A DNA stretch of 64,000 bases from Halomontanus rarus. Lineage in GTDB: Archaea > Halobacteriota > Halobacteria > Halobacteriales > Natrialbaceae. This document shows, one piece after another, positions 2,968 to 60,810 of the stretch. Positions within the stretch are counted from its first letter, which is position 1; the number at the start of each line of letters is the position of its first letter. The notes under the pieces were generated by a model. It did not search any database. It was not told the origin of the DNA and worked only from the letters and a program-made list of their open reading frames with translations. Location: contig NZ_CP071597.1 in NCBI RefSeq assembly GCF_017357405.1, positions 2,232,001 to 2,296,000 of the forward strand, given 5' to 3'. The position numbers and the translations under genes are program-made.

Positions 2968-5142
2968 GTGTCCGAGACTGCCGGGTACATGCGGTTCTTT
3001 CCGTACGAGACCCCGTACGAGAACCAGCACGAGGCGATGGACCGAATCCACAACGCCCTCGTTCGGGGCCAGGACGTCCTCTTCGAGGGGGCCTGCGGCA
3101 CTGGCAAGACGCTCTCCTCGCTCGTCCCCGCCCTCGAGGTCGCTCGCGAGCAGGACAAGACGGTCGTCATCACCACGAACGTCCACCAGCAGATGCGCCA
3201 GTTCGTCGCGGAAGCCAGCGCGATTACCCGCGAGGAACCCATCCGCGCGGTCGTGTTCAAGGGAAAGGCCTCGATGTGTCACATCGACGTCGGCTACGAG
3301 GAGTGTCAGGCGCTGCGGGACAACACCCGCGCGCTCGTCGACGCCGAACGCGACCGGACCCAATTAGAGCGCCGCCAGCGCGAACTCTTAGCGGAGAGCC
3401 AGGAGGGTGACGGCGGGGCCGCGGACGCCCGGAGCGCGGTCATGGACGAGTTGCAGTCGATCGAAGACGACATCGAGGACTTGGAGGAGCAGAACGTCTG
3501 CGAGCACTACCGGAACAACCTGCGCGAAGACACCGAGGCGTTCTTCGGCTGGCTGTTCGAGGACGTGCGCACGCCCGACGACGTCTACGAGTACGCCGAC
3601 GAGCGCCAGCTGTGTGGCTACGAACTGCTGAAGGAGGGAATGGAGGGCGTCGACCTCGTCGTCTGTAACTACCACCACCTGCTCGATTCGACCATTCGAG
3701 AGCAGTTCTTCCGGTGGATCGGCCGCGATCCAGAGGACATCATCGCGGTCTTCGACGAGGCCCACAACGTCGAGGACGCCGCTCGCGACCACGCCTCCCG
3801 ACACTGCTCGGAGCGCACGTTCGACTCCGCGCTCGACGAGTGCGAGGAGACCGACGATCCGCGGGCGGGCGACGCCGCGAACGTCCTCTCGGCGTTCCGT
3901 CGGGCCTTGGTCGAGACGTACGAGGACTCCTTCGGCTTCGGCGACCGCGAGCGGATCGGCGAGAACTGGGAGGACGTCTCCGTCACCAACGAGGACCGCC
4001 GGGACGACCTCACACTCGCCTTCCTCCAGCAGTACTCCGGGCAGGGCATCGACGGCGACCTCGAGGCGGCGATGAAACTCGGCCAGCAGTTAGACGAGGA
4101 GTACGAGGAGGCCTACCGCAACGGCGAGAGCGCGACCCGCACCGAGTGTCAGACCCTGCAGGCGGCGGCGTTCGTCAGCGCGTGGATGAACGAGGGGGCC
4201 AAGCAGGGACTGTACCCGGTCGTCTCCGTCACCCGCGACGCCGGCACTGACGAGATCTACGGCCGCGCGGAGCTGTACACCTGCCTTCCCCGGCAGGTTA
4301 CGGGCCGGCTGTTCGAGGAGGTGTACGCGACGGTCCTGATGAGCGCGACCATCCAGCCCTTCGACGTCACCGAGGACGTTCTCGGTCTCTCCGATCCCGT
4401 CACGATGGCCTACGGTCTCCAGTTCCCGGCCGATCGCCGCCGAACCTACGCGGTCGAGACGCCGGCGCTGTTCTCGAGCGATCGCGACGACCCCGCCGTC
4501 CAGGAGCGGGTCGCCGACGCCATCCGCGACGCGGTTCGCTTCACGCCCGGCAACACGCTCGTCTTCTTCCCGAACTACGCCGAGGCCGAGCGGTACGCGG
4601 ACCGACTCCGGCGAAGCGACTGCGAGGCGACGGTCTACCTCGACGAGCCGGGCGTCGCGGCGGAGGAGCTCCGCCGGCGGTTCGTCGCCGACGGGAACGG
4701 CGTGCTCCTGACGTCGCTGTGGGGGACCCTCGCGGAGGGCGTGAGTTTCGACGGCGAGGACGCCCGGACGGTGCTCGTGGTCGGCGTCCCCTACCCGCAC
4801 CTGGACGACCGGGCGGAGGCCGTCCAGGACGCCTACGACGCGGCTTTCGACGGAACCGAGACGGGGTGGCGCTACGCCGTCGAGATTCCGACCGTTCGCA
4901 AGACTCGACAGGCGCTCGGGCGGGTGATCCGCTCGCCGGAGGAAGTCGGCGTCAGAGCCCTTCTGGATCGGCGGTACTCGAAGCGAGCGAAGTCAGATCT
5001 CGGGAAGTACAGCGTCAACGGCACCTTCCCGCACGACGAACGCGAGGAGTTGATCGACATCGACCCCGAGAAGCTCAAGTTTGCGATGCTCAATTTCTTC
5101 GGCGATCACGACGCCTACGAGGGCGAGCCGCCAGCTCCCTGA
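2968..5142 (+). CDS. XPD/Rad3-family iron-sulfur DNA helicase
   Basis: A 724-residue superfamily 2 helicase, 5'-3' in characterised relatives and linked to repair. Visible elements are Walker A GACGTGKT (41-48), a DEAH box VFDEAHNVED (263-266) and four Cys placed like the XPD FeS ligands (C104, C113, C178, C216). The C-terminal helicase half has LMSATIQPF, LLTSLWGTLAEGVSF and the motif VI-like RQALGRVIRSPEE. A highly charged predicted coiled-coil of about 50 residues (about 125-175) separates the second and third FeS Cys, making this domain longer than in crenarchaeal XPD. GTG 2968 is preferred because of the TATA spacing. Confidence 0.9.
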   Translation: MSETAGYMRFFPYETPYENQHEAMDRIHNALVRGQDVLFEGACGTGKTLSSLVPALEVAREQDKTVVITTNVHQQMRQFVAEASAITREEPIRAVVFKGKASMCHIDVGYEECQALRDNTRALVDAERDRTQLERRQRELLAESQEGDGGAADARSAVMDELQSIEDDIEDLEEQNVCEHYRNNLREDTEAFFGWLFEDVRTPDDVYEYADERQLCGYELLKEGMEGVDLVVCNYHHLLDSTIREQFFRWIGRDPEDIIAVFDEAHNVEDAARDHASRHCSERTFDSALDECEETDDPRAGDAANVLSAFRRALVETYEDSFGFGDRERIGENWEDVSVTNEDRRDDLTLAFLQQYSGQGIDGDLEAAMKLGQQLDEEYEEAYRNGESATRTECQTLQAAAFVSAWMNEGAKQGLYPVVSVTRDAGTDEIYGRAELYTCLPRQVTGRLFEEVYATVLMSATIQPFDVTEDVLGLSDPVTMAYGLQFPADRRRTYAVETPALFSSDRDDPAVQERVADAIRDAVRFTPGNTLVFFPNYAEAERYADRLRRSDCEATVYLDEPGVAAEELRRRFVADGNGVLLTSLWGTLAEGVSFDGEDARTVLVVGVPYPHLDDRAEAVQDAYDAAFDGTETGWRYAVEIPTVRKTRQALGRVIRSPEEVGVRALLDRRYSKRAKSDLGKYSVNGTFPHDEREELIDIDPEKLKFAMLNFFGDHDAYEGEPPAP

Positions 5143-5202
5143 GCGGATCTCCCGAACTTCGAGCGGCGAGACGCTCCGAATCCCGAGCGTCGAGTCTCGA
5201 CG

Positions 5203-5709
5203 CTACGCCGGCAGCGAAACCGTGCTCACCGGCAACCGGTAGGTTCCGTCCCAGAACTCGAGTTCGCTCACCGTCCACTGCACGGGGTCGATCTCCCGGT
5301 CGGCCAGCCGGCGAGCCGTCTCGAGGTCGCCGCCGCGAGCGAGGGTCACGTGGGGGACGTAGTCCGATCCCTCGAGGCCCTCCACGGTCCCAAAGGCGTC
5401 GACGAGGTCGGCGTGGATCCCCTCGAGACCGGGGCTCTCGACGGCGAGGTAGACGACGGGGGCGCTGCCCAGCGGTGGGTCTTCGAAGTAGTCGATCCCC
5501 GTGATTCGGGCTTCGACGGCGGGAGAGCCCTCGAGTGCGCGGTGGGCGCGGTGTTGAAGCTGGGCGACGCGGTCCTCGTCGGCGTCACCGAGACGTTTGA
5601 GGAGACAGGAGTGGTCGTCGCGGACGGTCTCGAATCCCTGGAGGGCGGGGAAGAGATCGTTCGCGATCTGGCGGACGCGGCCGGGGACGGGGACGTTGAC
5701 GCTGTACAC
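5203..5709 (-). CDS. thpR: RNA 2',3'-cyclic phosphodiesterase (2H phosphoesterase)
   Basis: A 168-residue protein of the LigT/ThpR 2H phosphoesterase superfamily, which hydrolyses RNA 2',3'-cyclic phosphates and in vitro can join tRNA halves by a 2'-5' bond. The two catalytic His motifs are present: DDHSCLLKRLG near residue 32 (first motif, with Cys where Thr is usual) and YVPHVTLARGG near residue 118 (H-x-T-L). Length matches the family. The gene converges on the helicase gene and is followed on the same strand by a small membrane protein gene further upstream. The name follows family precedent; the in vivo substrate is unknown. Confidence 0.85.
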   Translation of the reverse strand: MYSVNVPVPGRVRQIANDLFPALQGFETVRDDHSCLLKRLGDADEDRVAQLQHRAHRALEGSPAVEARITGIDYFEDPPLGSAPVVYLAVESPGLEGIHADLVDAFGTVEGLEGSDYVPHVTLARGGDLETARRLADREIDPVQWTVSELEFWDGTYRLPVSTVSLPA

Positions 5710-5800
5710 TGTGCTATGTGGAAAGAGGAGTCGGAGCGAGTATGAGTCTGGTGTTCCCGGATCGATCGGCGGCCGCTCGTCGAGCGCGGTATCGCCGCGA

Positions 5801-6001
5801 TCAGAGTCGGTCCACCAGCCAGAGGACGATCAGAACGGCGATCGCGAGCTGAACGACGAAGAAGAACGGCCCCAGCAGGCTGGCGATGCTGTTGATGAGC
5901 GCGCCCGCGATCTGCAAGACGAGCAACACTGCGATCAGCGCCAGCACGATCTTGAGCAGGGTCTCCACTTCGAGTTCGCCACGAGTGGTTCGATTGCGCA
6001 T
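5801..6001 (-). CDS. Small two-helix membrane protein (66 aa)
   Basis: The protein has a short basic and acidic head (MRNRTTRGELEVE) followed by two closely spaced hydrophobic helices at about 15-35 and 45-63, ending LWLVDRL. This matches a family of conserved haloarchaeal small membrane proteins (possibly the one called DUF7554; that name is from memory). Function is unknown. It begins at ATG 6001 and diverges from the winged-helix membrane regulator gene, sharing a 113-base promoter region with it. Confidence 0.65.
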   Translation of the reverse strand: MRNRTTRGELEVETLLKIVLALIAVLLVLQIAGALINSIASLLGPFFFVVQLAIAVLIVLWLVDRL

Positions 6002-6085
6002 ACGTTCACGAACGTCTGAACGTGTGAAAAACGTATCGTCAGCGGGTCTCGAGAATCTCGCGGGGCAACTGCGGTCGGAAAGACC

Positions 6086-6092
6086 TATTTAC
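6086..6092 (+). promoter_or_regulatory. TATA box of the membrane winged-helix gene
   Basis: TATTTAC lies 29 bases before ATG 6115, the position expected for a leaderless transcript. It decides the start in favour of ATG 6115 over GTG 6109. Confidence 0.45.
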
Positions 6093-6114
6093 GCGGCCAT
6101 GCCATCTCGTGGTA

Positions 6115-7383
6115 ATGGACGTCAGGGCGGTTCGGGCGCTGCTTTGTTGTCTGGTGGTGCTCGGTGGGCTGGGTGTCGGTGCTGGAGTGGCACCATTCGC
6201 GGTCACGGGGTCGGGATTCGACGGGGGCGGTTCACCCGTCACAGCCGTTACAGAGCCCGCGACGGGGTCGGTTACCGATGGTGAGCGTGAAGCGGCGACG
6301 GCCCCAAACGTCGCCACCCTCCAGGAGGACGACGAACTGACGCTGAGCGGCTACCACAAGATCAGCGTCGAGATCGATCTGCACGGGAACGGCTCCGCGA
6401 CGTGGACCGTCGAGTACCGATATCGACTCGACGACGGGAACGACACCGTCGACTGGGAGTCGTTGCAAGCGGACGTCGAGAACAGACCCGACGCCTACCT
6501 CGAGTCGTTCGAGGCCGACCGGGAGCAGACCCTCGCCGTCGCGGAAAACGAGACCGATCGGAACATGACGATGGAGAACTTCGCCGTCGAAACCGACGAG
6601 AGTTCGGACCCACAGGAGTACGGCTACGTCCGCTTCACCTTCGACTGGGGTTCGTTCTCACACGTCGAGGTAAACCGGATCGAAGCGGGTGACGCCCTCG
6701 AGGGGTTCGTGATGGACGAGCGAACGCAACTCGTCATCACCTGGCCGGACGGGTACAACAACGTCTCGGTCGAACCGGAACCGGACGATACTGGGGAGAC
6801 GGCCGTCTTCTGGTTCGGTGACGAAACCCGCGAGTTCGTCGACGGCGAACCGCGGATCGAGTTGATCCAGACCGGCGGTGAGCCGATCGAGTCGCCGGAG
6901 GACACCCGCGAGGACGTGCCGCTTTCCTGGCTCGCCGGACTCGGAATCGCCCTGCTGGTGGTGGTTGCCCTCGCCCTCGGCTGGTGGTGGGCGACCCACA
7001 GGAACGGGGGCGAGGATCCGAGCGAGCACCCGGCCGGCCCGGCCACGAACGCGGAGCCACAGGTGGACGTCGACGAACCGAACGAACCGACGGGACCGCC
7101 GCTCGAACTCCTGAGCAACGAAGAACGCGTCATGCGACTGCTCGAGGAGCAGGGTGGACGGATCAAACAGCAACAGGTTGTCACCGAACTCGACTGGACG
7201 GAAGCCAAGACCAGTCAGGTCGTCAGCGGACTCCGCGAGGAAGACCAGATCGAGGTCTTCCGAATCGGACGCGAGAACGTCCTGTCGCTCCCCGACGACG
7301 CCAGCCGGTCGGATATCGATACCGATACGGAGACTTACACCGATGTCGACGAAGACGAACTCGACACCGGCGGCGAATCGTGA
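6115..7383 (+). CDS. Membrane-anchored protein with C-terminal winged helix
   Basis: A 422-residue protein with three parts. An N-terminal hydrophobic stretch (about 5-30) acts as signal or anchor. An acidic beta-rich exterior domain (about 60-265) resembles the haloarchaeal DUF7345 type. A transmembrane helix at about 270-290 (ending GWWWATHRNGG) is followed by a cytoplasmic tail whose last 80 residues form a winged helix (NEERVMRLLEEQGGRIKQQQ...WTEAKTSQVVSGLREE), DUF7343-like; DUF names are from memory. The layout suggests a one-component transmembrane regulator that senses outside and binds DNA inside, which is inference. Its targets are unknown and no operon partner is present. Confidence 0.75.
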   Translation: MDVRAVRALLCCLVVLGGLGVGAGVAPFAVTGSGFDGGGSPVTAVTEPATGSVTDGEREAATAPNVATLQEDDELTLSGYHKISVEIDLHGNGSATWTVEYRYRLDDGNDTVDWESLQADVENRPDAYLESFEADREQTLAVAENETDRNMTMENFAVETDESSDPQEYGYVRFTFDWGSFSHVEVNRIEAGDALEGFVMDERTQLVITWPDGYNNVSVEPEPDDTGETAVFWFGDETREFVDGEPRIELIQTGGEPIESPEDTREDVPLSWLAGLGIALLVVVALALGWWWATHRNGGEDPSEHPAGPATNAEPQVDVDEPNEPTGPPLELLSNEERVMRLLEEQGGRIKQQQVVTELDWTEAKTSQVVSGLREEDQIEVFRIGRENVLSLPDDASRSDIDTDTETYTDVDEDELDTGGES

Positions 7384-7500
7384 GGTTGACACGTTCCAAC
7401 ACACCACATAAACTGGACGAACGATCGTCAATTCGGGCCGCGAACGGTCCCGTGAGACCCTGGCGGGGCTGTAACATTTGCCTCACCGGAATGTTTTAAT

Positions 7501-7611
7501 ATGACGCTCACTAGAGTCTCTCAGTATATGCTGGAATCCGCGTCTACCGTCGACGTTCGCTTCGGTAGCGACGCGGCCGACGTTTCTCGACGACCGCGAC
7601 CGGGCCGGTAG
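7501..7611 (+). CDS. Possible 36-aa leader or small ORF
   Basis: A 36-codon ORF starts at an ATG directly after a TTTTAAT tract and ends TAG 7609-7611. The peptide begins MTLTRVSQYMLESAS and ends in an Arg/Pro-rich stretch. It has no recognisable domain and no strong Shine-Dalgarno sequence. It could be a small protein, an upstream ORF of the argG transcript, or chance. Only its isolation in a region with promoter-like sequence supports it. Confidence 0.2.
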   Translation: MTLTRVSQYMLESASTVDVRFGSDAADVSRRPRPGR

Positions 7612-7723
7612 GCCCAACAATATCTCACCTTTCGTCTTTCGTATTCGACCAAATTGCCGAGAGTTCAGAATATTCCGGTTAGCAACCGCTCTCTTTAAAT
7701 TTTTCACGTCTTAAACCGACGAA

Positions 7724-7729
7724 TTTAAG
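7724..7729 (+). promoter_or_regulatory. Probable argG TATA box
   Basis: TTTAAG lies 35 bases before ATG 7759, predicting a start site near 7752 and a leader of only about 7 bases. A second TTTAAA at 7694-7699 is a possible alternative. Confidence 0.4.
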
Positions 7730-7758
7730 GCCGTTCTTCGATTCCACTCGAGTACGAC

Positions 7759-8994
7759 ATGACACGCGTTGCACTCGCGTTTTCGGGCGGTCTGGACACG
7801 ACGATCTGTGTCCCGCTGCTCGAGGAAGAATACGGATACGACGACGTCATCGGCGTCACTGTCGACGTTGGCCAGCCAGCGTCGGAGTTCGACGAAGCCG
7901 AAGAAACCGCCGAGGCACTGGGTCTCGAGCACTACGTCGTCGATGCGCGAGCGGAATTCGCCCAACTCTGTCTCGACGGCGTCCGCGCGAACGCCACCTA
8001 TCAGGGCTACCCGCTCGGAACCGCACTCGCACGCCCGGTGATCGCCCAGGCGATCCTCGAGGTCGCGATCGAGAACGACTGCGACGCCCTCGCCCACGGC
8101 TGTACGGGCAAGGGCAACGACCAGCTCCGGTTCGAGGCCGTCTGGCGCGACTCGGATCTCGAGGTCTTCGCGCCGATCCGCGAACTCGGACTCACGCGCG
8201 AGTGGGAACAGGAGTACGCCGCCGAGAAGAACCTGCCCGTCGAGGGCGGGAACGAAGGCGACTGGAGTATCGACACCAACATCTGGAGTCGTTCGGTCGA
8301 GGGCGACGAACTCGAGGACCCCAACTACGTACCCCCCGCGGACATCTACGAGTGGACCGACGAACCCTCGGGCGAGACCGAGGAGATCGAGATCACCTTC
8401 GAGAAGGGCTATCCCGTCGCCGTCGACGGCGACGAGATGGACCCCGTCGAACTCATCGAGCACCTGAACGAACTCGCCGGCTCCTACGGCGTCGGTCGGA
8501 CCGACTCGATGGAAGACCGCATGCTCGGGCTCAAGGTTCGCGAGAACTACGAACACCCCGCGGCGACGACGCTGCTCAACGCCCACGAGGCCCTCGAGGG
8601 GCTCGTGCTCACGCAGGAAGAACGCGAGTTCAAGCAGCTGATCGATCAGCGCTGGTCGAAGAAGGGCTACGAGGGGCTGGTCGACGCCCCGCTCGTGGAC
8701 GCGCTCGAGGGCTTCATCGACGAGACCCAGAAACGCGTCACGGGAACGGTGAAGATCCGGTTCGAGGGCGGACAGGCCCGTCCAGTCGGTCGCGACAGCA
8801 AGTACGCGGCGTACTCGGCGGCACACGCCTCCTTCGACACCGAGACCGTCGGCAAGATCAAGCAGGAAGACGCCACGGGCGTCGCGAAGTACCACGGCTT
8901 CCAGCGTCGCCTGGCCAAGAAGGTCACCGAAGACGAGGACGGCGACGACGAGACCGTCGAACTCGCGACCGACGGCGGCGACCAAGAACGGTAA
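7759..8994 (+). CDS. argG: Argininosuccinate synthase
   Basis: A 411-residue cytoplasmic enzyme joining citrulline and aspartate with ATP to give argininosuccinate, the penultimate arginine step. The N-type ATP pyrophosphatase P-loop is at the start (FSGGLDTT, about 8-15), followed by GVTVDVGQP and the family motif HGCTGKGNDQ (about 114-123). Length is normal; the C-terminus carries an acidic tail typical of halophiles. It is the first gene of the arginine run, and argH starts one base after its stop. Transcription probably comes from the AT-rich region just upstream. Confidence 0.97.
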   Translation: MTRVALAFSGGLDTTICVPLLEEEYGYDDVIGVTVDVGQPASEFDEAEETAEALGLEHYVVDARAEFAQLCLDGVRANATYQGYPLGTALARPVIAQAILEVAIENDCDALAHGCTGKGNDQLRFEAVWRDSDLEVFAPIRELGLTREWEQEYAAEKNLPVEGGNEGDWSIDTNIWSRSVEGDELEDPNYVPPADIYEWTDEPSGETEEIEITFEKGYPVAVDGDEMDPVELIEHLNELAGSYGVGRTDSMEDRMLGLKVRENYEHPAATTLLNAHEALEGLVLTQEEREFKQLIDQRWSKKGYEGLVDAPLVDALEGFIDETQKRVTGTVKIRFEGGQARPVGRDSKYAAYSAAHASFDTETVGKIKQEDATGVAKYHGFQRRLAKKVTEDEDGDDETVELATDGGDQER

Positions 8995-28820: not shown

Positions 28821-30101
28821 GTGTACTCGAGCGACCGCGAACGCGACCGGGACGACACCGACGGCCGACTCGAGGGAGTGGCGCGCGATCGGTTCGTCCT
28901 CGCGAGCGTCGTCTTCGCCGTGATGTTCTCCCAGCTGTTGCTCTACCCGGGCGTCTCCACGCTGGTCGAGGCGCTCGGGGCCGACGCGGCCGAGTCGGCG
29001 TTCGCCACGACGCCGCTGGACGCGAGCATGTGGTTCCTCGTCGCGGAGTTCGCCGCCTACGTCGCCTTCGTCGGCGTCTGGGGCGTCGCCAGCGACGTGG
29101 CCGGCCGCCGGACACCGTTTATCGTCGCCAGCGCGCTCGCGGGCGCGGTCGGCTACGCCGCGCTGGCGGTCGCCCCCTCGATCGGCGGCGGCGTCGCCTT
29201 CGAGACCGTCCTCCTCCTGCGAGTCGTTCAGGGCGCGATGACCATCGGCGCCTTCTCGCTGACGATGACGATGCTTATGGACCTCGAGGGCGGCCACGGG
29301 AAGAACATGGGGGCGGCCGGAATCGCGATCGGGCTGGGTGCCGCCCTCGGCGCACCGATCGGCGGGCAGTTGACGACGGTCGATCCGCTGGCGCCGCTGG
29401 TCGCCGCCGCGGCCCTCCTCGTCTGCGTCGGCGGGCTCGTCTCGCTGGTTCCCGACCGCGCACCCAGCGACCGCCGAACGGCGCGAGCGGTGCTGTCGGG
29501 GGTTCGCCGGACGCCGGCGCTGACCATTCCGTTCGCGTTCGGGCTCATCGATCGGTTGACGGCGGGCTTTTTCGCCCTCGTCGGGACGCTGTACTTTCAG
29601 GACACCTTCGGGCTCGATCCGGGCACGACCGGCCTGTTACTGGCGTGTTTCTTCGCCCCGTTCGCCCTGCTACAGTACCCGATGGGCGCGCTCTCCGACC
29701 GCATCGGCCGCGTGCCGCCGATCGTCGTCGGCTCGATCTGCTACGGCTTCGGCATCGTCGGCGTCGGCGCGGCACCGACGGTCGCCACCGCCGCCATCGC
29801 GATGGTCGTCGTCGGCGTCCTCGGCGCGCTCGTCTCGCCGTCGACGATGGCGCTGGTCACCGACCTCGCCGCCGACGGGGAACGGGGAATCGCCATGGCC
29901 GGCTTCAACGTCGCCGGCAGCGTCGGCTTTCTCGGCGGCTTCCTCGTCGGCGGCACCGTTGCCGGCACGTACGGCTACGACGTCGCCTTCCTCGCCGTCG
30001 GCGGCCTCGAGATCGCGATCGCGGTCGTGGCCGTTCCGGCGTTCCTCCGGCTGTCGATCGACCGCTCGGCGCGCTTCTCGCTCGAGGACGGGGAACTGTA
30101 G
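28821..30101 (+). CDS. Major facilitator superfamily transporter
   Basis: A 426-residue polytopic protein with about twelve hydrophobic segments in two halves. The MFS loop 2-3 motif appears as GVASDVAGRRTPF (about 94-106) and again in the second half as GALSDRIGRVPP (about 289-300). Such proteins exchange or co-transport small solutes or drugs. An N-terminal acidic/basic cytoplasmic stretch (1-25) precedes TM1. The start is GTG 28821. No neighbouring catabolic or regulatory gene points to a substrate. Confidence 0.85.
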   Translation: MYSSDRERDRDDTDGRLEGVARDRFVLASVVFAVMFSQLLLYPGVSTLVEALGADAAESAFATTPLDASMWFLVAEFAAYVAFVGVWGVASDVAGRRTPFIVASALAGAVGYAALAVAPSIGGGVAFETVLLLRVVQGAMTIGAFSLTMTMLMDLEGGHGKNMGAAGIAIGLGAALGAPIGGQLTTVDPLAPLVAAAALLVCVGGLVSLVPDRAPSDRRTARAVLSGVRRTPALTIPFAFGLIDRLTAGFFALVGTLYFQDTFGLDPGTTGLLLACFFAPFALLQYPMGALSDRIGRVPPIVVGSICYGFGIVGVGAAPTVATAAIAMVVVGVLGALVSPSTMALVTDLAADGERGIAMAGFNVAGSVGFLGGFLVGGTVAGTYGYDVAFLAVGGLEIAIAVVAVPAFLRLSIDRSARFSLEDGEL

Positions 30102-30367
30102 TCGTATCAGTCGCGGAGACGAACGCGAACGATTGTTTCGGCCGGTCTCGTCGTCGATCATACGACTCTCAGCGAGTGTCGACCGTCGTGGCGTCCCGTC
30201 GAGCTCGAACGGTGCGCTAGTGTCGGATTCATCCCACTCCGGTACGGATCGTCCGTTCGTGTCGATGTTCGTAACGGCGAATTGCCGTCTCGTACGCTCG
30301 GACTACCCGTATCGGCCCCGCGAGTGACGGCCGTCGACTTTTCTTCGTCGACCCGGAAGCGCTGGTG
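30102..30367. other. Spacer upstream of the cupredoxin gene
   Basis: A 266-base stretch without a convincing gene. It carries several CG-rich short repeats and a pyrimidine-rich CTTTTCTTCG about 25-30 bases before ATG 30368, where a promoter would be expected. Confidence 0.35.
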
Positions 30368-31087
30368 ATGACACGAGATACTCGGTTTTCGCGACGATCT
30401 ATCGTCAAATTAGTCGGCGCGTCGGCGGCGACCGCAGCCCTCGCGGGTTGCGGTGGACCAGAGGGAGACAACGAGACCGATGGCGACGAAACCGGAGCGA
30501 ACGACACCGGACTCGGAGCGGACAACGAGACCGGCGGTATGAACGAGACCGAAGATAACGAAACCGACGGCTTCGGTAACGAGACTGAGGACAACGAAAC
30601 CGACGGTCTCGGTAACGAGACTGAGGACAACGAGACGGCGGACAACGAAACCGCGAACGAGACGGCAGATAACGAAACCGCGAACGAGACGGCGGACAAC
30701 GAAACCGCAGGTAACGAATCCGCAGGCAACGAGAGCGGAAGCGTGAGCGAAGAGTGGCAGGACGTCGAGGAGATCGAACTCGGCGGCGAGACCGCGGCCT
30801 GGCAAGGCGTCGCGCCCGCCCCGATCGAGGGCGAGGAGAATCCGACGCTCGAGCTCACCGAGGGTACCGAGTACGACATCACGTGGGAGAACATCGACGC
30901 ACAGCCCCACAACATCGAGATCTGGGACGACAACGAGGAGATCGTCGAGGACTACCAGACCGAGATCATAGAGGAGGAAGGCGAGACCCAGACGCTGACG
31001 TTCGAGGCGACCTCGGAGATGGCCGAGTACGTCTGTCAGGTCCACGTCAGTACGATGATCGGCGATATCGAGGTCCAGTCCGGGTAG
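30368..31087 (+). CDS. Halocyanin-like cupredoxin lipoprotein with NET-repeat linker
   Basis: A 239-residue exported blue-copper protein. A Tat signal (FSRRSIVKLVGASAA) ends in lipobox LAGC, so the protein is membrane-tethered outside the cell. Residues about 35-120 are a low-complexity linker of NETxDNET-type repeats with 16 N-x-S/T sequons. The C-terminal cupredoxin domain (about 130-239) has ligands His in AQPHNIEIWD and Cys, His, Met in YVCQVHVSTM. Such proteins carry electrons between membrane complexes. ATG 30368 is preferred over GTG 30365. No redox partner gene is adjacent. Confidence 0.88.
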   Translation: MTRDTRFSRRSIVKLVGASAATAALAGCGGPEGDNETDGDETGANDTGLGADNETGGMNETEDNETDGFGNETEDNETDGLGNETEDNETADNETANETADNETANETADNETAGNESAGNESGSVSEEWQDVEEIELGGETAAWQGVAPAPIEGEENPTLELTEGTEYDITWENIDAQPHNIEIWDDNEEIVEDYQTEIIEEEGETQTLTFEATSEMAEYVCQVHVSTMIGDIEVQSG

Positions 31088-47489: not shown

Positions 47490-47737
47490 GTACCGGTCGT
47501 TCGGGTGGGAATGGGAATTGTCTTTCTATTGGGCTGGTGGCTCGGGGCGGTACGATGCGGACGAGTGTCAGTATTTCGAGAACGGCTCTCCCGACGACTC
47601 TCGACCGGGGGATTCGTTCCACGCTCCGAGACCGATCGCCTACGACGTACTCCCAGAGAAGTCGTTCTGAGTACGTGAGATAACGCGATAATGTGATCGA
47701 AAATATATACTGTAATTAGTGAAATTTTGAGTGATAC

Positions 47738-47908
47738 ATGTGCGCTGAAAGACAAAAAGACGTTCTTTCGATGCTGTTTGCCGTACAGTTCTCGATACTC
47801 GTCCTCGTGATTCCGTCACTCTGGCCACTGCTGCTACTCCCGGTAGCCGTTACACTCCGAGTGCTGAAAAGGGAATACGAACGCCGGCTCGCTGAAGCGT
47901 CCGAGTAG
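47738..47908 (+). CDS. Small membrane protein (56 aa)
   Basis: This 56-codon ORF starts at ATG 47738. After a polar head (MCAERQKDVLSM) come two short hydrophobic segments split by a Pro (LFAVQFSILVLVIPSLW, LLLLPVAVTLRVL), then a charged tail KREYERRLAEASE. It lies downstream of a very AT-rich promoter-like tract (AAATATATAC, about 47700). A seven-base-pair hairpin lies about 24 bases after the stop. The family is not recognised, but the hydrophobic pattern and amphipathic end look real. Confidence 0.6.
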   Translation: MCAERQKDVLSMLFAVQFSILVLVIPSLWPLLLLPVAVTLRVLKREYERRLAEASE

Positions 47909-48296
47909 GAGGGTCCTGTCACGAGGGTTCTGAGACGGCGTTCCACCGTCTCTTCCGGCACCCATTCTCGCAGACAGTCGAGCGAACGCAGCGAGGCTAG
48001 AATCACAAAGTCACGACGATTGGATCGACGGTGGCTCACCCGGCGAAGTTTCGCTTCTCCGTGGGTCGTGGCATCGCCCAAACACTCGTCGATCGCCCGC
48101 CGTCAGGGGCGGCTTCGCGAATCGGTCGTCCAACTCGTCGTCGACGAGTTGACATCGTCTCTCACATCGCTCGAATCGGATCGGTGATTCGCTACTCGCA
48201 CAGTACCCGCTGTTCGGATATTCCGAACCAGCGAGTGTTCACTCTCGGATCGACCGAGATTTTTTGAGTGTCGTCTGCGACACGAGTGTAGAGTGT
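47909..48296. other. Non-coding stretch with hairpins and a partial reading frame
   Basis: This 388-base stretch lies upstream of the Nudix gene. It contains a hairpin at 47932-47952 (GAGACGG/CCGTCTC), a perfect palindrome at 48131-48151 and protein-like frames on both strands that lack starts. The last 50 bases carry TTTTTT at about 48260. It may be a decayed mobile or repeat element, or a structured RNA. Confidence 0.4.
48131..48151. repeat. Perfect 10-bp inverted repeat
   Basis: CAACTCGTCG and CGACGAGTTG are separated by one base. It is the longest perfect palindrome noticed in non-coding sequence of this window. With so short a loop it is more likely a protein-binding dyad or a cruciform than an RNA hairpin. 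Confidence 0.6.
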
Positions 48297-48863
48297 ATGT
48301 CGATCGACGAGCGAACGCGCGCCGAGGTCGACCGCCGTCTCGAGCGCCTCGAATCCGAGTACGGCTCGTTTCCGATCCGCGAGGAGACGGTGACGAACGA
48401 GTCCTCATTTTTCGAGCAGGGTGTCGAGTTGGCCAGAGAGGGCTGGATCGGCGACGCCGGCGCGTGGGTTACCGACGCGGCCGACCGCGCGCTGTTGATC
48501 CGCCACGAGGCCGATCCCGAGCGCTGGGGAACGCCCGGCGGCGGCCACGAACCCGGTGAGACGATGGGCGAGACCGCCCGCCGCGAGGTCCGCGAGGAGA
48601 CCGGCCTCGAACCGACGCTGACCGGTGTCTGTTTCGCCCGGCAGAAGACGGTCGTCCACGAGGACGACCCGGAGCGTCGGTTTCGGATGCTGACGGTGAT
48701 CTTCGAGGCCGACGTCGACGCCGGTGACGTCGTCGAAACGGCGATCCAGATCGGAGACGACGAGATACTCGAGGCGCGGTGGTTCGAAGCCGATGACCCG
48801 CCGGAAGCGGTTCACGGGTTTCTCGAGGAGCGAGTCGAAGACTGGGAGACAGTGACAGATTGA
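48297..48863 (+). CDS. Nudix hydrolase (188 aa)
   Basis: A 188-residue Nudix protein. The Nudix box is complete: GGGHEPGETMGETARREVRE followed by ETGL (about 91-114), with all catalytic glutamates. An N-terminal region of about 65 residues (RAEVDRRLERLESEYGSF) precedes the Nudix core, as in several haloarchaeal members. Such enzymes hydrolyse nucleoside diphosphates linked to X; the substrate is unknown. ATG 48297 follows family length better than GTG 48264. Confidence 0.85.
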   Translation: MSIDERTRAEVDRRLERLESEYGSFPIREETVTNESSFFEQGVELAREGWIGDAGAWVTDAADRALLIRHEADPERWGTPGGGHEPGETMGETARREVREETGLEPTLTGVCFARQKTVVHEDDPERRFRMLTVIFEADVDAGDVVETAIQIGDDEILEARWFEADDPPEAVHGFLEERVEDWETVTD

Positions 48864-54415: not shown

Positions 54416-55351
54416 CTACGCGCCGTCCCCGTCGCTCGAGCGAGATTCGGACGACGCACCGAGGACGAATACCAGTCCCCCGTCCTCGAGGCCCACGATA
54501 CCGGTTCGGGCGGTGAACGTCGTTCCGTCGGTGCGCCTCCCGACGCATCGACCCGTCCACCGCCAGCCGTCTTCGACCGTCGGGAGCGCCGTCGACCTGA
54601 GGCGGTCGGCCTCCTCGTCGGGATAGACGGTGTGCCAGGGCCGGCCGAGCAGGTCGTCGCGATCGGCCCCGAACTCCGCCGCGAACACCCGATCGACGAG
54701 TTCGAACGTCCCGGCGGGCGTGACGATCGCGACGCCGTTCGGGGCGGTTTCGAGCGCGACTAACGCTCGCCGAGCCAGCGCCGATCGTCGCTGCCGGTCG
54801 ACGATGGCGCGAATTCGACAGCCGAGAAGCGCCATCGTCGTTTCGTCGGCACCTTTCTGTAGAAAGTCGACTCGCCGTGTCGAGCAGAGCTGGGTGAGGA
54901 TCGCCTCGCTACACTCGTCGACGAAGTAGACGACCGGAAGTTCCGGGTCGCGCTCGCGGACGGTTTCGAGCGTCCGGTTCTCGAGTTCGTGTTCGGTTTC
55001 GGTTTCGGTTCCGGTTCCGTCTTCGTTCCTCGTCGGCGCGTTTCCGCTGACCACGCAATCGATCGACTCGATGCGTCTCGTCGACTCCTGAAGCGACGAT
55101 GCCGTCCTGACCTCGAGTCGGTCGTCGTCCTCGAACGCGGCCCGGACGAGGTCGCGGAAGGTTGGGTCGTCGTCGAGATAGCAGACGGTGATCGGGTCGG
55201 AGGTCGGGTTCGGACTCAGTGCTCGACGGCGCGTGGATTCGATCGGGAGTGCGGGGAGACGAGATGGATCGATCCCGTCGACTCGCTGGCGGTGGTCCTC
55301 GGAACGGTCACGAATCGACGTGCCGGACCGTGTCGAATTATCTCCGGTCAT
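54416..55351 (-). CDS. Pseudo-receiver-PAS signalling protein
   Basis: A 311-residue soluble protein with a receiver-like domain (about 50-185) and a PAS domain (about 195-305). The receiver keeps the acidic cluster YLDDDPTFRDLV and the switch lysine in DFLQKGADE, but the phospho-acceptor position reads DCVVSGNAP where relatives have DCVVSDYDMP; Asp is replaced by Gly. A Thr/Glu-rich insert (GTGTETETEHE) interrupts the fold. There is no kinase or DNA-binding domain. ATG 55351 is used; GTG 55384, overlapping the HalOD1 stop (TAGTG), is a good alternative. Confidence 0.75.
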   Translation of the reverse strand: MTGDNSTRSGTSIRDRSEDHRQRVDGIDPSRLPALPIESTRRRALSPNPTSDPITVCYLDDDPTFRDLVRAAFEDDDRLEVRTASSLQESTRRIESIDCVVSGNAPTRNEDGTGTETETEHELENRTLETVRERDPELPVVYFVDECSEAILTQLCSTRRVDFLQKGADETTMALLGCRIRAIVDRQRRSALARRALVALETAPNGVAIVTPAGTFELVDRVFAAEFGADRDDLLGRPWHTVYPDEEADRLRSTALPTVEDGWRWTGRCVGRRTDGTTFTARTGIVGLEDGGLVFVLGASSESRSSDGDGA

Positions 55352-55383
55352 ACCGTCACCAGTGAACGCGTCACTGTCGGTCA

Positions 55384-55662
55384 CTAGCTGCCGGACGCGG
55401 GTTCGTCGACCGAGACGGTTCCGTCCCCCCGAACCGTCACCGTGTAGCCCCTGTACTCGAACCGGATCCATCCGTCGAGTCCGGCACACAGGAGCCGGTC
55501 GAGTGCTTCCGGATCGATCGAGCGGTACAGCGGCGGCTCGAGATCGATCGGATCGGTTCCCGCAGCCTCGGCGACGGCGGTGACGACGCGGATACTAATC
55601 GGGTCGTGCGTTCGGGTGGGTGTTGGTGCGTTCACAGTCGGACAGACGCGAGCGACCGGCAT
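55384..55662 (-). CDS. HalOD1 output-domain protein (92 aa)
   Basis: A 92-residue protein with the haloarchaeal HalOD1 output domain: SIRVVTAVAEAAGTDPIDLE, YRSIDPEALDRLL and the closing beta hairpin FEYRGYTVTVRGDGTVSV. HalOD1 proteins often accompany or fuse to receiver domains. Here the pseudo-receiver-PAS gene follows immediately (32 bases, or overlapping by TAGTG), so the two probably form one operon, divergent from the LOV sensor gene. Its biochemical role is unknown. Confidence 0.85.
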   Translation of the reverse strand: MPVARVCPTVNAPTPTRTHDPISIRVVTAVAEAAGTDPIDLEPPLYRSIDPEALDRLLCAGLDGWIRFEYRGYTVTVRGDGTVSVDEPASGS

Positions 55663-55836
55663 CCGACTGGCCAGTATATGCGTAGTACGACCGCGAAATC
55701 GGGGGTAACGTGTATAGCGTCGCGATCGAAACCGACGGACGGCGCCCTGGCCGATTCCCGCATCCTCGTCACTCGAGCCGGCGGCCACGCGTTTGACCGC
55801 CGTGGAATAATCCCTGTTCAACTCGAACGGGTTAGT

Positions 55837-57501
55837 ATGGCTACCCCCTCGATTCGACGGGCGGGTTCCGAACGGGTGACATCGTTCCGTTCCCTGACGA
55901 TACTGACGGGGATGCTCGCCGCCGTTGCAGTCGCGGTCGTCGTCGCGGCTAGCACGACCGACGCCGCGAGCGCCCTGCCGCCGTGGACCGTTCCGCTCGG
56001 CCTCGTCGGACTGAGCGTCCGGGACGACGACGGGAGCGATCTCGAGCGGGTGACGGCCGAAGTTCGGCGGCTCGCGGCGGGCGACGACGGCGAGGGCGAG
56101 GTCGCGGGCGTGAACGAGAACGCGGACGCAGACGCGGACCTCCCGACCGACCGAGACGACGAGGTCGGAGCGCTCGCCCGAGCGGTCGACCAACTGGGGG
56201 AGACGCTGCGAACGCGCGAGCGACGCACGCTGGAGAGCGAACGATATCGCAAGGAGCTCTACCGGCTCACCTCGAGTCAGGACCTGAGCGACGAGGCGAA
56301 ACGCGAGGCGCTGCTCGAACTCGGGTGCGAGCGTCTGGGGGTCGAAACCGGGTTCGTCGCCCGGATCGACGACTCGACGGGGAGCTTCGAGATTCGGACT
56401 GCCGCTGGCGGTGACTTCGTCCGGGCCGGAATGGAGGCCCCGCTCTCGAACACGATCTGTCGAAAGACGATCACCTCGGACGACATTTTGGGGATTCACG
56501 ACACCGGCGATGGGGAGTGGGGTGCGGACCCGGCCCCCGAGCGGTGGTCGATCGGATGTTACGTGGGCGGAAAGGTTCTGGTCGACGGCGACCTCGTCGG
56601 AACGGTCTGTTTCGTCGACCGGGAGCCCCGCGAGGAGCCGTTCTCCCACGAGGAAAAGGCGTTCGTCGACCTCGTGACTCGGTGGGTGAGTTACGTGAGC
56701 GAACGACGCGAGTACACACAGGACCTCCGACTCGTCGAGCGCGCGATGGATGCCGCGCCGATCGGCATCACGATCACGGACCCCGACCGGGCGGATAACC
56801 CTCTCGTGTACGCGAACGAGGGATTCGAGCGCGTAACCGGGTACGCACCCGAGGAGGCGGTCGGTCGGAACTGTCGGTTCCTGCAGGGCGAGGCGACGGA
56901 TCCGAATCGCGTCGCGAAACTGCGCGCGGCGATCGACGCGGAAGAATCCGTCTCGGTCGAACTCCGCAACTATCGCAGCGACGGGACGCCGTTCTGGAAC
57001 CGGGTGACGGTCGCGCCGGTCGAAGCTGACCGCGAGAGCGACGTCGAACGCGAAACCGGAGACGAAGGCGAAGACGGAAACAACGGCGAAAGCGAGGTCA
57101 CCCACTTCGTCGGCTTTCAAGAGGACGTTACCGAGCGCGTCGAACGCGAGCATGAACTGGAACACTATCGGGAGTACATCGACGACGTCCTCGACGCCGT
57201 CGACGACGTGTTCTACATCCTCGACCGGGACGGAGAACTCGAGCGCTGGAACGAGACGCTCACCGAGGTGACCGGCTACTCGGACGACGAACTCGAGTCG
57301 ATGAACGCCGTCGAATTCTTCGGTGAAGACGACCGGGACGAGCTCGTCGACGCCATCGAAACGGTCCTCGAGACGGGGCGCGTTCGCGTCGACCTGCCGT
57401 ACCTGACCAAGAGCGGGGACGACGTCCCCTACGAGTTCGTCGCCTCCCGTCTCGAGGATATCGATGGCGACCCGATAGTGGTCGTATCGGTCGAGACGTG
57501 A
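55837..57501 (+). CDS. Membrane GAF-LOV-PAS sensor (5' half of a split Bat-like gene)
   Basis: A 554-residue protein: a transmembrane helix (about 20-40), a HAMP-like linker (about 68-135), a GAF domain (about 140-292), a LOV-type PAS (about 298-435) and a second PAS (about 445-554). The LOV core has GRNCRFLQGEATDP with flavin-adduct C346, plus N378, N388 and Q428, so a blue-light flavin photoreceptor is likely. The protein stops abruptly after VVVSV, just where a PAS domain should continue RDVTER. That continuation is found in the overlapping frame (next gene, GTGA overlap), pointing to a one-base frameshift. The start is ATG 55837. Confidence 0.82.
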   Translation: MATPSIRRAGSERVTSFRSLTILTGMLAAVAVAVVVAASTTDAASALPPWTVPLGLVGLSVRDDDGSDLERVTAEVRRLAAGDDGEGEVAGVNENADADADLPTDRDDEVGALARAVDQLGETLRTRERRTLESERYRKELYRLTSSQDLSDEAKREALLELGCERLGVETGFVARIDDSTGSFEIRTAAGGDFVRAGMEAPLSNTICRKTITSDDILGIHDTGDGEWGADPAPERWSIGCYVGGKVLVDGDLVGTVCFVDREPREEPFSHEEKAFVDLVTRWVSYVSERREYTQDLRLVERAMDAAPIGITITDPDRADNPLVYANEGFERVTGYAPEEAVGRNCRFLQGEATDPNRVAKLRAAIDAEESVSVELRNYRSDGTPFWNRVTVAPVEADRESDVERETGDEGEDGNNGESEVTHFVGFQEDVTERVEREHELEHYREYIDDVLDAVDDVFYILDRDGELERWNETLTEVTGYSDDELESMNAVEFFGEDDRDELVDAIETVLETGRVRVDLPYLTKSGDDVPYEFVASRLEDIDGDPIVVVSVET

Positions 57502-59765
57502 CCGAACGGACACGGTACGAACGGGAACTCGAACGGACGGCCGACCTGCTCGAGCGAATCCAGGCGATGGCGGACATCGGCGGGTTCGAACTCGACGTGC
57601 GGTCCGAGCCGCCCGACTCGATCTGGACCGAGGAACTCTATCGCGTCCACGACCTGCCCCGTGACGCGGACCTCGACCTCGAGACGGTCCTCGAGTGCTA
57701 TCACCCCGACGATCGCCAGCGGGTGCGCCAGCGACTCGAGCGTGCGCTCGAAACCGAGACGAGCTACGACTTCGAAGCGCGACTGCTCACTCGAGTCGGC
57801 GAGACGCGTTGGGTGCGAGCCATGGGCGAGCCGATCCACGAGGACGGACGGCTCGTCAAATACCGCGGCTCGATACAGGACATCACGGCCCAGAAAGAAC
57901 GGGAGCTGGCGCTCAGTTCACTCCACGAGGCCACTCGCGACTTGCTCCACGCTGAGACCGAACCCGACGTCGCCGAACTGGTCGTCGACGCCGCCGCCGA
58001 CGTCCTCGACGTCTCCGGTATCGGACTCTACCTGCTCGACACAGCGACGAACGCGCTCGAACCGGCCGCAGCCACGTCCGGATTCATCGGCGGATCCGAT
58101 GGAACTGACGACCCATCCGGCGCTGACGACACGGGCGAACCCGACGTGCCCTCGATCGCCGTCGGCGACCGTGACTCCGCCCTCTGGAACACGTTCGTCG
58201 CGGGAAGCCAGACCGTCTTCGACGACCTCGAGATCGGCGGTCGGTCCGTCGATACCGACGGTGAACGACGGTCGTCGGGCCAGTCGGTCGACGCCGACGA
58301 CGTCGAGGGGCAGAGCGGTCTGGCCGTCCCGATCGACGACCACGGCGTGTTCGTCGTCGTCACACCGCCGTCGACGATCGACGGCGAGATGCGGCGATTG
58401 GTCGAGACGCTCGTCGCGACGGCGACGGCCGCGTTCGACCGCCTCGAGAGCGAAGCGAGCCTGCGAGAACGGGACCTCGAACTGCAGGAACGAAACCGCC
58501 GTCTGAGAGGACAGATCCAGATCAACGAGATCATCCGAACGATCGATCGGTCGCTCGTCGAGGCCACCAGTCGAGCGGAGATCGAGCAAACCGTCTGCGA
58601 TCGACTGGCCGCGACCGAAGAGGTCGCGTTCGCCTGGATCGGCGCTCCCGACGTGAGCGAAACCGAACTCGTCCCGCGAGCGTGGGCCGGCGCCGGCCCG
58701 GAGTATCTGGACGAGATCTCGCTCGACGCGACCGCCGCCGGCGGTTCGGAACCCGCCGTCAGCACCGTCCGAACGGAACGGCCGACGGTCGTCGCGAACG
58801 TCCTCGAGGACCTGCAAACCGACGCCTGGCGAACGGCCGCGCTCGCTCGAGGCTTCGTCTCCTGTCTCAGCGTTCCGCTCGCCGTCGACGATTACTCCTA
58901 CGGCGTTCTCACGGTGTACGCGACGGAGTCGGAGACGTTCGGAGACCTCGAGCGAACGGTGTTCGCGGAACTGGGAGAGAGCATCGCGAACGCGATTACC
59001 GCCGTGAATACCCGACAGGCGCTCCACGCCGATACCCACCTCGAACTCGAACTCGAATTCGACAGTTCGGAGACATTTCTCGGCCGTCTCGCCCGAAAAA
59101 CCGGCTGTCGCGTCACGTACGATGGACTGGCGACGCATTCGGCCGACGAAACGCGTCTGTTCTTTACGACGACCGGGTGCGATCCCGACGCCGTCTGCGC
59201 GTTCCTCGAGAATCTCGTCTCCGTTACCGACTGTCGGCTGATCGGGGGGCGTGTGTCCGGAGCAGACGGAGAGGGCGAGAGCGAGGCCGAGGGCGAGAAC
59301 GAGGAATCCGAATACCGCTTCGAAGCGACCGTCTCCGGCCCGACCGTCCCCTCGAGACTCCTCCGATACGGCGCCACGCCGCGAACGATTCGCGCCACCG
59401 AAACGAGGCTCGAGGCGGTCGTCGACCTCCCGACGGACAGCGACGTCCGCGAGCTAGTCGAGGCGCTCGGCGACCGATATCCGTCGGTCGAACTCACCGG
59501 CCGGCGTGACGTCGAACGGGACAGCCAGACCAGACGCGAGGTGACCACCTCGCTGGTCGAACCGCTGACCGACCGGCAACTCGAAGTCCTCAGGACGGCC
59601 TACTTCGCCGGCTTCTTCGACTGGCCCAGAGAGAGCACGGGCGAGGAAGTCGCCGCGATGCTCGGGGTCACGCAACCGACCGTCAACCGACACCTCAGAC
59701 TCGGACAGCGACGGCTCCTCGAGCAGTTGTTCGAGGATGAGTCGGTCGCGGTCCCAAGAGCGTAG
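57498..59765 (+). CDS. Bat-like PAS-GAF-HTH_10 regulator (3' half of a split gene)
   Basis: A 755-residue bacterio-opsin-activator-type regulator. A PAS domain (about 15-135; GGFELDVRSEPPDSIWTEEL, YRGSIQDITAQKE) is followed by a GAF-like domain (about 140-320), a coiled linker and a second GAF domain of the Bat type (about 345-505; AFAWIGAPDVSETELVPRAW). An HTH_10 DNA-binding region ends the protein (LTDRQLEVLRTAYFAGFFDW, TGEEVAAMLGVTQPTVNRHL). Codons just before GTG 57498, in this frame, still read RDVTER, the natural continuation of the upstream gene. Target genes are unknown; no opsin gene is in the window. Confidence 0.85.
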   Translation: MTERTRYERELERTADLLERIQAMADIGGFELDVRSEPPDSIWTEELYRVHDLPRDADLDLETVLECYHPDDRQRVRQRLERALETETSYDFEARLLTRVGETRWVRAMGEPIHEDGRLVKYRGSIQDITAQKERELALSSLHEATRDLLHAETEPDVAELVVDAAADVLDVSGIGLYLLDTATNALEPAAATSGFIGGSDGTDDPSGADDTGEPDVPSIAVGDRDSALWNTFVAGSQTVFDDLEIGGRSVDTDGERRSSGQSVDADDVEGQSGLAVPIDDHGVFVVVTPPSTIDGEMRRLVETLVATATAAFDRLESEASLRERDLELQERNRRLRGQIQINEIIRTIDRSLVEATSRAEIEQTVCDRLAATEEVAFAWIGAPDVSETELVPRAWAGAGPEYLDEISLDATAAGGSEPAVSTVRTERPTVVANVLEDLQTDAWRTAALARGFVSCLSVPLAVDDYSYGVLTVYATESETFGDLERTVFAELGESIANAITAVNTRQALHADTHLELELEFDSSETFLGRLARKTGCRVTYDGLATHSADETRLFFTTTGCDPDAVCAFLENLVSVTDCRLIGGRVSGADGEGESEAEGENEESEYRFEATVSGPTVPSRLLRYGATPRTIRATETRLEAVVDLPTDSDVRELVEALGDRYPSVELTGRRDVERDSQTRREVTTSLVEPLTDRQLEVLRTAYFAGFFDWPRESTGEEVAAMLGVTQPTVNRHLRLGQRRLLEQLFEDESVAVPRA

Positions 59766-59985
59766 GTGTCGGCGTCACTGGCAGTGGTATGCAGGCGTCG
59801 CGGTCGAAGGGTCTCGAGAGCAGCGGTGGTCGGTGTAGGCGTCGCGGTCGCCGGAGCGTCGGTGGGGGTTGCGGTGTTGTTGTCGGTACGGGCATCAGTT
59901 CGCGGTAGCCAGGAGACGTCACGGTCGCCGGTACACCGATCATCGGAGAGGAACGCCCAAGGGGACGGCCCGTGAACGAGACGGT

Positions 59986-60810
59986 ATGGAAACGTCTTCG
60001 CGTCAACGGGCGGACGGCCCGGTTCGTTCGACTCTCGTCGGCATCGGCCTCGCGCTGTTGGGGTTGCTCACCGCGGAGTTCGCAACCCTACCCGCGTTCT
60101 TGCTCGACCCCACGCTCCTCGAATCGCCGGCAGACGCGTCGAATACGGCGATAGTTGCCCTGTTGACGCTGAACTTCCTCGGCTTCTTCGTCGCCGGCGG
60201 TCTGTATCTCTGGTGGACGGACCGAAGTTGGGACTGGCTCGACCTCGACGTCCCATCGTGGCGCGGCTGGCGCTACGTCCTCGTCGGAATTTTCGGCAGC
60301 ATCGTGTTCGTGATGGCCGTCAACGTCGTTGCGACGGCGTTCGACCTCCCCTCCTCGGAAAATCAGGTGATGACGCTGATCGGAGACGATCCGAACATGG
60401 TGCTGGTGATGATCGTCATCGTGTTCCTGCTGAACGCCCCCGCGGAGGAGTTTCTGTTCCGAAACGTCATCCAGAAGCGCCTGTACGCCGCGTTCGGCCG
60501 TATGAACGCGGTCATCGTCGCGAGCGCCATCTTCGCACTGGTCCACATCCCCTCCTACGCGCTGGTTTCCGACGGCAGCTTCGCCCCGGCGGGAGCGATC
60601 GGCGTCTCGCTCGCCGTCGTCTTCGGCGGGTCGATCATCTTCGGCACCCTCTACGCGAAAACCGACAACCTCTTCGTCCCGATCGCAGCCCACGCCGCGT
60701 TCAACGCCGTCCAGTTCGGAGTCCTCTACCTCGTGCTTCGCTTCGCACCCGAAGAACTCGAGACCGCGACGGCCGCGGTCGTCGAGTTCGCTCCGGTACT
60801 CCCGTTCTAG
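59986..60810 (+). CDS. CPBP-family intramembrane metalloprotease
   Basis: A 274-residue membrane protein with about seven helices and the CPBP (Abi/Rce1-like) motifs: [14 protein letters not shown] (glutamate pair and Arg, about 151-164), the first His in [11 protein letters not shown] and the second in [12 protein letters not shown]. The family contains prenyl-protein proteases and bacteriocin-immunity proteins. The substrate is unknown. ATG 59986 removes an Arg-rich leader. The gene is followed by an extremely C-rich spacer and hjc. Confidence 0.85.

Follow-up and report, generated by a model that had tools for sequence, protein, structure and literature searches.

The window, a 64,000-nucleotide stretch of the Halomontanus rarus genome (G000:C1:2232001-2296000), holds two plus-strand open reading frames (ORFs) that overlap by four nucleotides and together carry the domains of a LOV/PAS/GAF sensor with an HTH_10 output, which raises the question of whether they are two genes or one gene that has been broken. 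The search set of 125 family genomes includes one further genome of the genus, G001, in which the syntenic locus is a single uninterrupted ORF of 1603 amino acids from stop to stop. The upstream half of the window gene aligns to G001 residues 161-729 with 74% amino-acid identity, and the downstream half aligns to residues 863-1603 with 79% identity. The frame break exceeds chance: the G001 frame stays open from end to end here, and each half can be aligned to it. We consider, with a probability of about 0.58, that a formerly single membrane-anchored LOV/PAS/GAF sensor gene with a Bat-like HTH_10 output was disrupted in this lineage, the frame break itself being in all likelihood either an ordinary mutation of recent date or an error in the sequence, and not a new gene arrangement. 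The features on which the argument depends are as follows.

55837 to 57501, plus strand: upstream ORF of 554 amino acids with a hydrophobic N-terminus, HAMP, GAF, LOV-type PAS and PAS; TGA stop at 57499-57501.
56764 to 57036, plus strand: PAS_9 match (residues 310-400) with the string GRNCRFLQ; PAS_9 is from Pfam, the LOV label from this motif.
57481 to 57486, plus strand: frame-change site, with one nucleotide fewer than G001, placed by DNA alignment and the G001 codons.
57498 to 57501, plus strand: GTGA overlap, in which the first GTG of the downstream frame (57498-57500) lies over the TGA of the upstream frame (57499-57501).
57498 to 59765, plus strand: downstream ORF of 755 amino acids from GTG, with PAS, GAFs, BAT and HTH_10.
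57536 to 57543, plus strand: junction of an in-frame PAS absence relative to G001, placed by eye from codon differences.
59565 to 59720, plus strand: HTH_10 DNA-binding output domain, now in the second ORF (59.9 bits, cut-off 23.1).

In the upstream ORF, Pfam placed HAMP (residues 69-125), GAF (159-285) and PAS twice (310-400 and 450-544), the HAMP match being scarcely above its cut-off (26.8 against 25 bits), and the hydrophobic N-terminal stretch was identified by eye. GRNCRFLQ, which we take to be the LOV photocysteine motif, is the sole basis for the LOV label on the first PAS. In the downstream ORF, PAS_3 (48-125), GAF (two stretches, the best at 357-500), BAT (512-682) and HTH_10 (690-741) were found; BAT (PF15915) and HTH_10 (PF04967) both exceeded their Pfam cut-offs, and by domain content the gene, before its break, belongs with the Bat-like HTH_10 regulators. 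PAS, GAF, BAT and HTH_10 is the usual Bat order, and the downstream half has its domains in that order. Unlike the Bat-type regulators, the intact relatives of this gene are long multi-PAS proteins; at 17 of 18 loci the length between stops is 1213-2156 amino acids. Pfam supports the domain order that the first-pass annotation had read for the fused protein, with the addition of BAT, which its list had lacked. The frame break falls between whole domains. Throughout the genome, 54 HTH_10 matches were found, all above the cut-off, one of which sits in an open frame of just 62 amino acids (C1:937253-937411). A search of the same genome for bacteriorhodopsin or rhodopsin, made without a positive control, gave no match.

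At E ≤ 1e-150, searching the 125 family genomes yielded 78 matches, the window's own included, from 69 of them; scoring was limited to the best eight first-look candidates, at most, of each genome. The open frame was at least 937 amino acids long in 75 of the 77 other matches, the exceptions being those in G009 (693 amino acids) and G139 (517 amino acids). Thirty loci were fetched, and after exclusion of the window's own, all 29 relatives, G001 included, had a frame that continues open for 255 to 516 residues ahead of the match; in 24 of them the count was cut off where the fetched sequence ended. Among the short frames, those of G139 and G117 run into contig ends, while G134, G072, G019 (second copy) and G068 (1035 amino acids) carry shorter one-piece genes; the match of the G019 second copy extends beyond the TAG at its end. 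The family member of G009 is itself broken, inside a PAS domain and at a different place from the window break; its locus (L043, G009 C4:277000-289000) has frame-broken parts at 4665-5939 and 5804-7882. Two genes with a boundary like that in the window were found in none of the relatives examined, and an ancestral two-gene arrangement was rejected on this ground. Since the relatives are one-piece, the window holds one gene broken in the lineage or in the assembly and not an old two-gene arrangement. The proposal that a one-base frame change had split a single regulator gene was therefore upheld by the uninterrupted G001 ORF and by the 29 open loci, the relatives being fused.

Where the frame changes can be seen from the alignment to G001. 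The upstream frame ends in ...DIDGDPIVVVSVET followed by its stop, and the downstream frame reads ...IGRDVTERTRYERELERT..., whereas the G001 residues at the break are ...VVGIGRDVTER. DNA alignment places the missing nucleotide between 57483 and 57485, a single small indel sufficing for the frame change; from 57484 on, the window bases match G001 when translated in the downstream frame, as IGRDVTER. The upstream ORF is already out of frame in its five final residues (VSVET). It had been suggested beforehand that one C inserted after a GTC at 57484-57486 would restore a VVSVRDVTER junction, but these bases are GTA, the change lies upstream of them at 57483/57484, and the junction of the intact relative does not have that form. 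The first start of the downstream frame is the GTG at 57498, and the next is the ATG at 57567.

A second difference from G001, overlooked in the first-pass annotation, lies beside the break: a whole PAS domain is absent. G001 has an extra PAS domain (PAS3a, residues 735-866) between the two aligned parts, and it is missing from the window gene. The linkers flanking it in G001 repeat 393 bases, or 131 codons, apart; by eye, codon by codon, the window tracks the first of these linkers as far as 57536 and the other one from 57539 or 57543 onward. The lost nucleotide is thus about 55 bases upstream of this junction, and the occurrence of two differences so close together in a 3.9-kb gene suggests one event or one fragile spot. 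The absence itself follows from direct comparison, and its direction, loss from the window or gain in G001, was judged from outgroups. PAS3a shares 45-46% of its residues with the next PAS of G001 (PAS3b), 62-65% with PAS domains of L044, L046 and L048, and 53-60% with those of several other relatives. A PAS3a-like domain directly follows a PAS2-like domain in 8 of 16 outgroup loci (L040, L041, L042, L044, L046, L048, L049 and L053), with a few residues separating the two in L042. In a PAS tree of the 16 outgroup loci, from which the broken L043 was omitted and in which branches were assessed solely by the Shimodaira-Hasegawa-like approximate likelihood ratio test, with 37 of 67 inner branches left unresolved, the last PAS of the window paired with G001 PAS3b (99) and PAS2 of the window with PAS2 of G001 (99), and G001 PAS3a fell in no well-supported group. 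Loss of PAS3a by the window appears to be the simpler reading of these comparisons than gain by G001. Because the two G001 PAS copies share just 45-46% of their residues, the 393-bp difference is unlikely to be a collapsed repeat and is probably genuine irrespective of the status of the single base.

The selective constraint on both halves was then compared with G001. The ratio of non-synonymous to synonymous substitution rates (dN/dS) was 0.31 for the upstream half (548 codons) and 0.23 for the downstream half (721 codons), ranging by part from 0.12 (PAS3b) up to 0.66 (TM-HAMP, the transmembrane and HAMP part) and 0.75 (a 22-codon linker); 13 other genes of the window gave 0.02 to 0.64. Differences by codon position were 57/67/142 on one side of the break and 77/65/197 on the other, with a third-position excess on both sides. 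In Tajima-type counts, chi-square exceeded 3.84 with a single outgroup of the 16 compared for the upstream half (L045, 27 against 11) and with 0 of 10 for the downstream half, for which 10 of the 28 outgroups at hand were used. Both halves look constrained, without clear acceleration or relaxation in these comparisons; therefore, the break either happened recently, is tolerated or stems from the assembly. Since neither half appears clearly relaxed or accelerated, the change is probably recent.

Several of these observations weigh against a gene disrupted in the lineage. The dN/dS values of both halves are high, 11 of the 13 sampled genes lying below the upstream half and 10 of the 13 below the downstream half, and the pairwise ratio spans the entire period of divergence from G001 and is blind to a very recent loss. 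Window-specific changes outnumbered G001-specific ones with 11 of 16 outgroups in the upstream half and with 6 of 10 (two ties) in the downstream half, counts that are not independent and mostly not significant; the halves may be mildly accelerated, clear acceleration being not seen. Besides, kept constraint is equally the outcome expected from a sequence error or from a pair that still works.

A working pair would arise if ribosomes terminating at the GTGA restarted there, giving a membrane LOV sensor without an output and a soluble PAS-GAF-BAT-HTH_10 regulator. Coupled reinitiation at overlapping gene pairs is known in Haloferax volcanii (PMC6728339), and the window pair resembles those pairs in its stop/start codon overlap; the four-nucleotide overlap noted previously is indeed present at 57498-57501, its GTG is the first start of the downstream frame, and a break between whole domains with constraint on both sides would suit such an arrangement. 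The window differs from the Haloferax volcanii pairs in having GTGA and not ATGA or TGATG, the overlaps that the abstract of PMC6728339 names (GTGA is absent from its main text), in the coding-motif origin of the overlap, and in its occurrence in one genome only. The intact G001 ORF has the codons GAC GTG ACC at the same place, and GTGA is a by-product of the coding motif and not a sign of an evolved stop-start, because the Asp-Val-Thr codons GAC GTG ACC give that string in a shifted frame. Intact full-length ORFs of relatives contain the string too: in 17 of them, G001 included, 61 D[VI]T[DE] junctions were read in the coding frame and 5 hold GTGA. A scan that misread minus-strand loci saw it at 0 of 11 loci whose downstream half has a D-[VIL]-[TS] motif close to its beginning; GTGA is infrequent at that junction in relatives. 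The 17 bases 57478-57494 contain none of the five Shine-Dalgarno-like strings looked for, and the split is seen in none of the relatives examined. Reinitiation of the Haloferax volcanii type could rescue the second half, with a chance overlap as its sole support, and we regard a split that works as unlikely. Programmed -1 frameshifting, which would join both frames, is far less probable still. As the downstream frame has no stop from about 57327 on, a -1 shift anywhere within about 170 bases would yield a fused protein, but 57324-57501 contains no slippery heptamer of the form X XXY YYZ, the archaeal fucA case uses a slippery site (as described in PMC8211752), and the arrangement is not conserved, the relatives examined having a single frame. 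The suggestion that such a frameshift is in use thus found no sequence signal in that interval. An Rfam search of 55000-60500 gave no match at gathering scores. The idea of a phase-variable allele was rejected: there is no homopolymer or short repeat at the site, no homopolymer of at least four lies within the 50 bases upstream, and the last one in 57324-57501 ends at 57429.

A sequence or assembly error, in which the living strain has a one-piece gene and the consensus is short by one nucleotide, is a possibility to be taken seriously, though we hold it to be the less probable explanation. It would account for the intact site in the relatives examined and for constraint on both halves without clear acceleration, and its likelihood depends partly on how often frames break elsewhere in the assembly. 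We compared 224 kb of G000 with 298 kb of G001. Of 155 G001 ORFs with a relative in the surveyed G000 stretch, 13 were flagged, and a clear third-position excess on both sides was seen in two of them: one is the light-sensor gene, and the other is a hydrolase-like ORF. For each of the remaining 11, the second stretch either had no clear excess or was too short to judge; one of these lies upstream of a start codon, one shows an antisense-frame pattern, and two are weak cases (script coordinates 29436 and 86082). The reverse survey, of 154 G000 ORFs on G001, gave 15 flagged rows. With just two clear breaks among 155 ORFs, the assembly is not riddled with frame errors. Among these ORFs, which cover about 165 kb, the window break is the sole clear single-nucleotide one; residual assembly errors could also occur at such a density, and one such break in that length neither proves nor excludes an error. 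The site lies outside any homopolymer of at least four, the 5.17-Mb assembly is near-complete (two contigs, 99.95% completeness), and the adjoining 393-bp in-frame difference is not readily ascribed to a collapsed repeat, all of which speak against an error. The hydrolase-like ORF, so labelled from our reading of its translation, lies near G000:C1:2366081-2366894 (in L187) and has a multi-base out-of-frame deletion relative to G001.

If the gene was indeed disrupted in the lineage, one PAS domain would have been lost in frame, most simply via recombination between the two similar inter-PAS linkers, and a single nucleotide would have been lost about 55 bases upstream of the resulting junction, the two events having occurred in either order. 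Judging from the sequence, translation from the original start would end at 57501 and give a 554-amino-acid sensor half without a DNA-binding domain; the DNA-binding half would be made only if ribosomes restarted at the GTG at 57498 or the ATG at 57567, or from a separate transcript. The simplest view is that of a gene disrupted not long ago, in a genome whose HTH_10 matches number 54. It resembles the disrupted genes (frameshift pseudogenes) of haloarchaea treated in PMC4500146, where small deletion is one of the listed causes, in being one ORF in relatives and two fragments here through a small deletion. It differs from them in that an absent domain adjoins the break and both fragments look constrained. 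It is also conceivable, if improbable, that the locus is a natural and very young gene fission, in which PAS loss via linker recombination was joined by the loss of a nearby nucleotide that split the rest, the pre-existing GTGA serving as an instant restart site and the membrane light sensor being uncoupled from a constitutive or differently controlled soluble regulator. The main text of a paper on archaeal LOV domains (PMC12202551) does not contain 'HTH', and a literature search gave no paper on frameshifts in haloarchaeal LOV or bacterioopsin-activator genes, which is not to claim that none is in print.

Should the break be real, it would illustrate how modular PAS/GAF regulators come to erode or split, a domain being lost between similar linkers and the frame breaking at a motif in which stop and start already overlap; otherwise, the locus represents an error or a broken gene of the ordinary kind. 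In annotation, the two adjacent 'genes' here are to be counted as one family member.

Two further observations concern the surroundings of the gene. A 709-amino-acid open frame runs antisense to the upstream half (window 55384-57513, minus strand) and is most likely an artefact of high G+C content. Synteny with G001 is interrupted at window positions 30086-30748 and 47535-48303, where G001 has about 13.8 kb and 7.0 kb, respectively, and the window has less than 0.8 kb.

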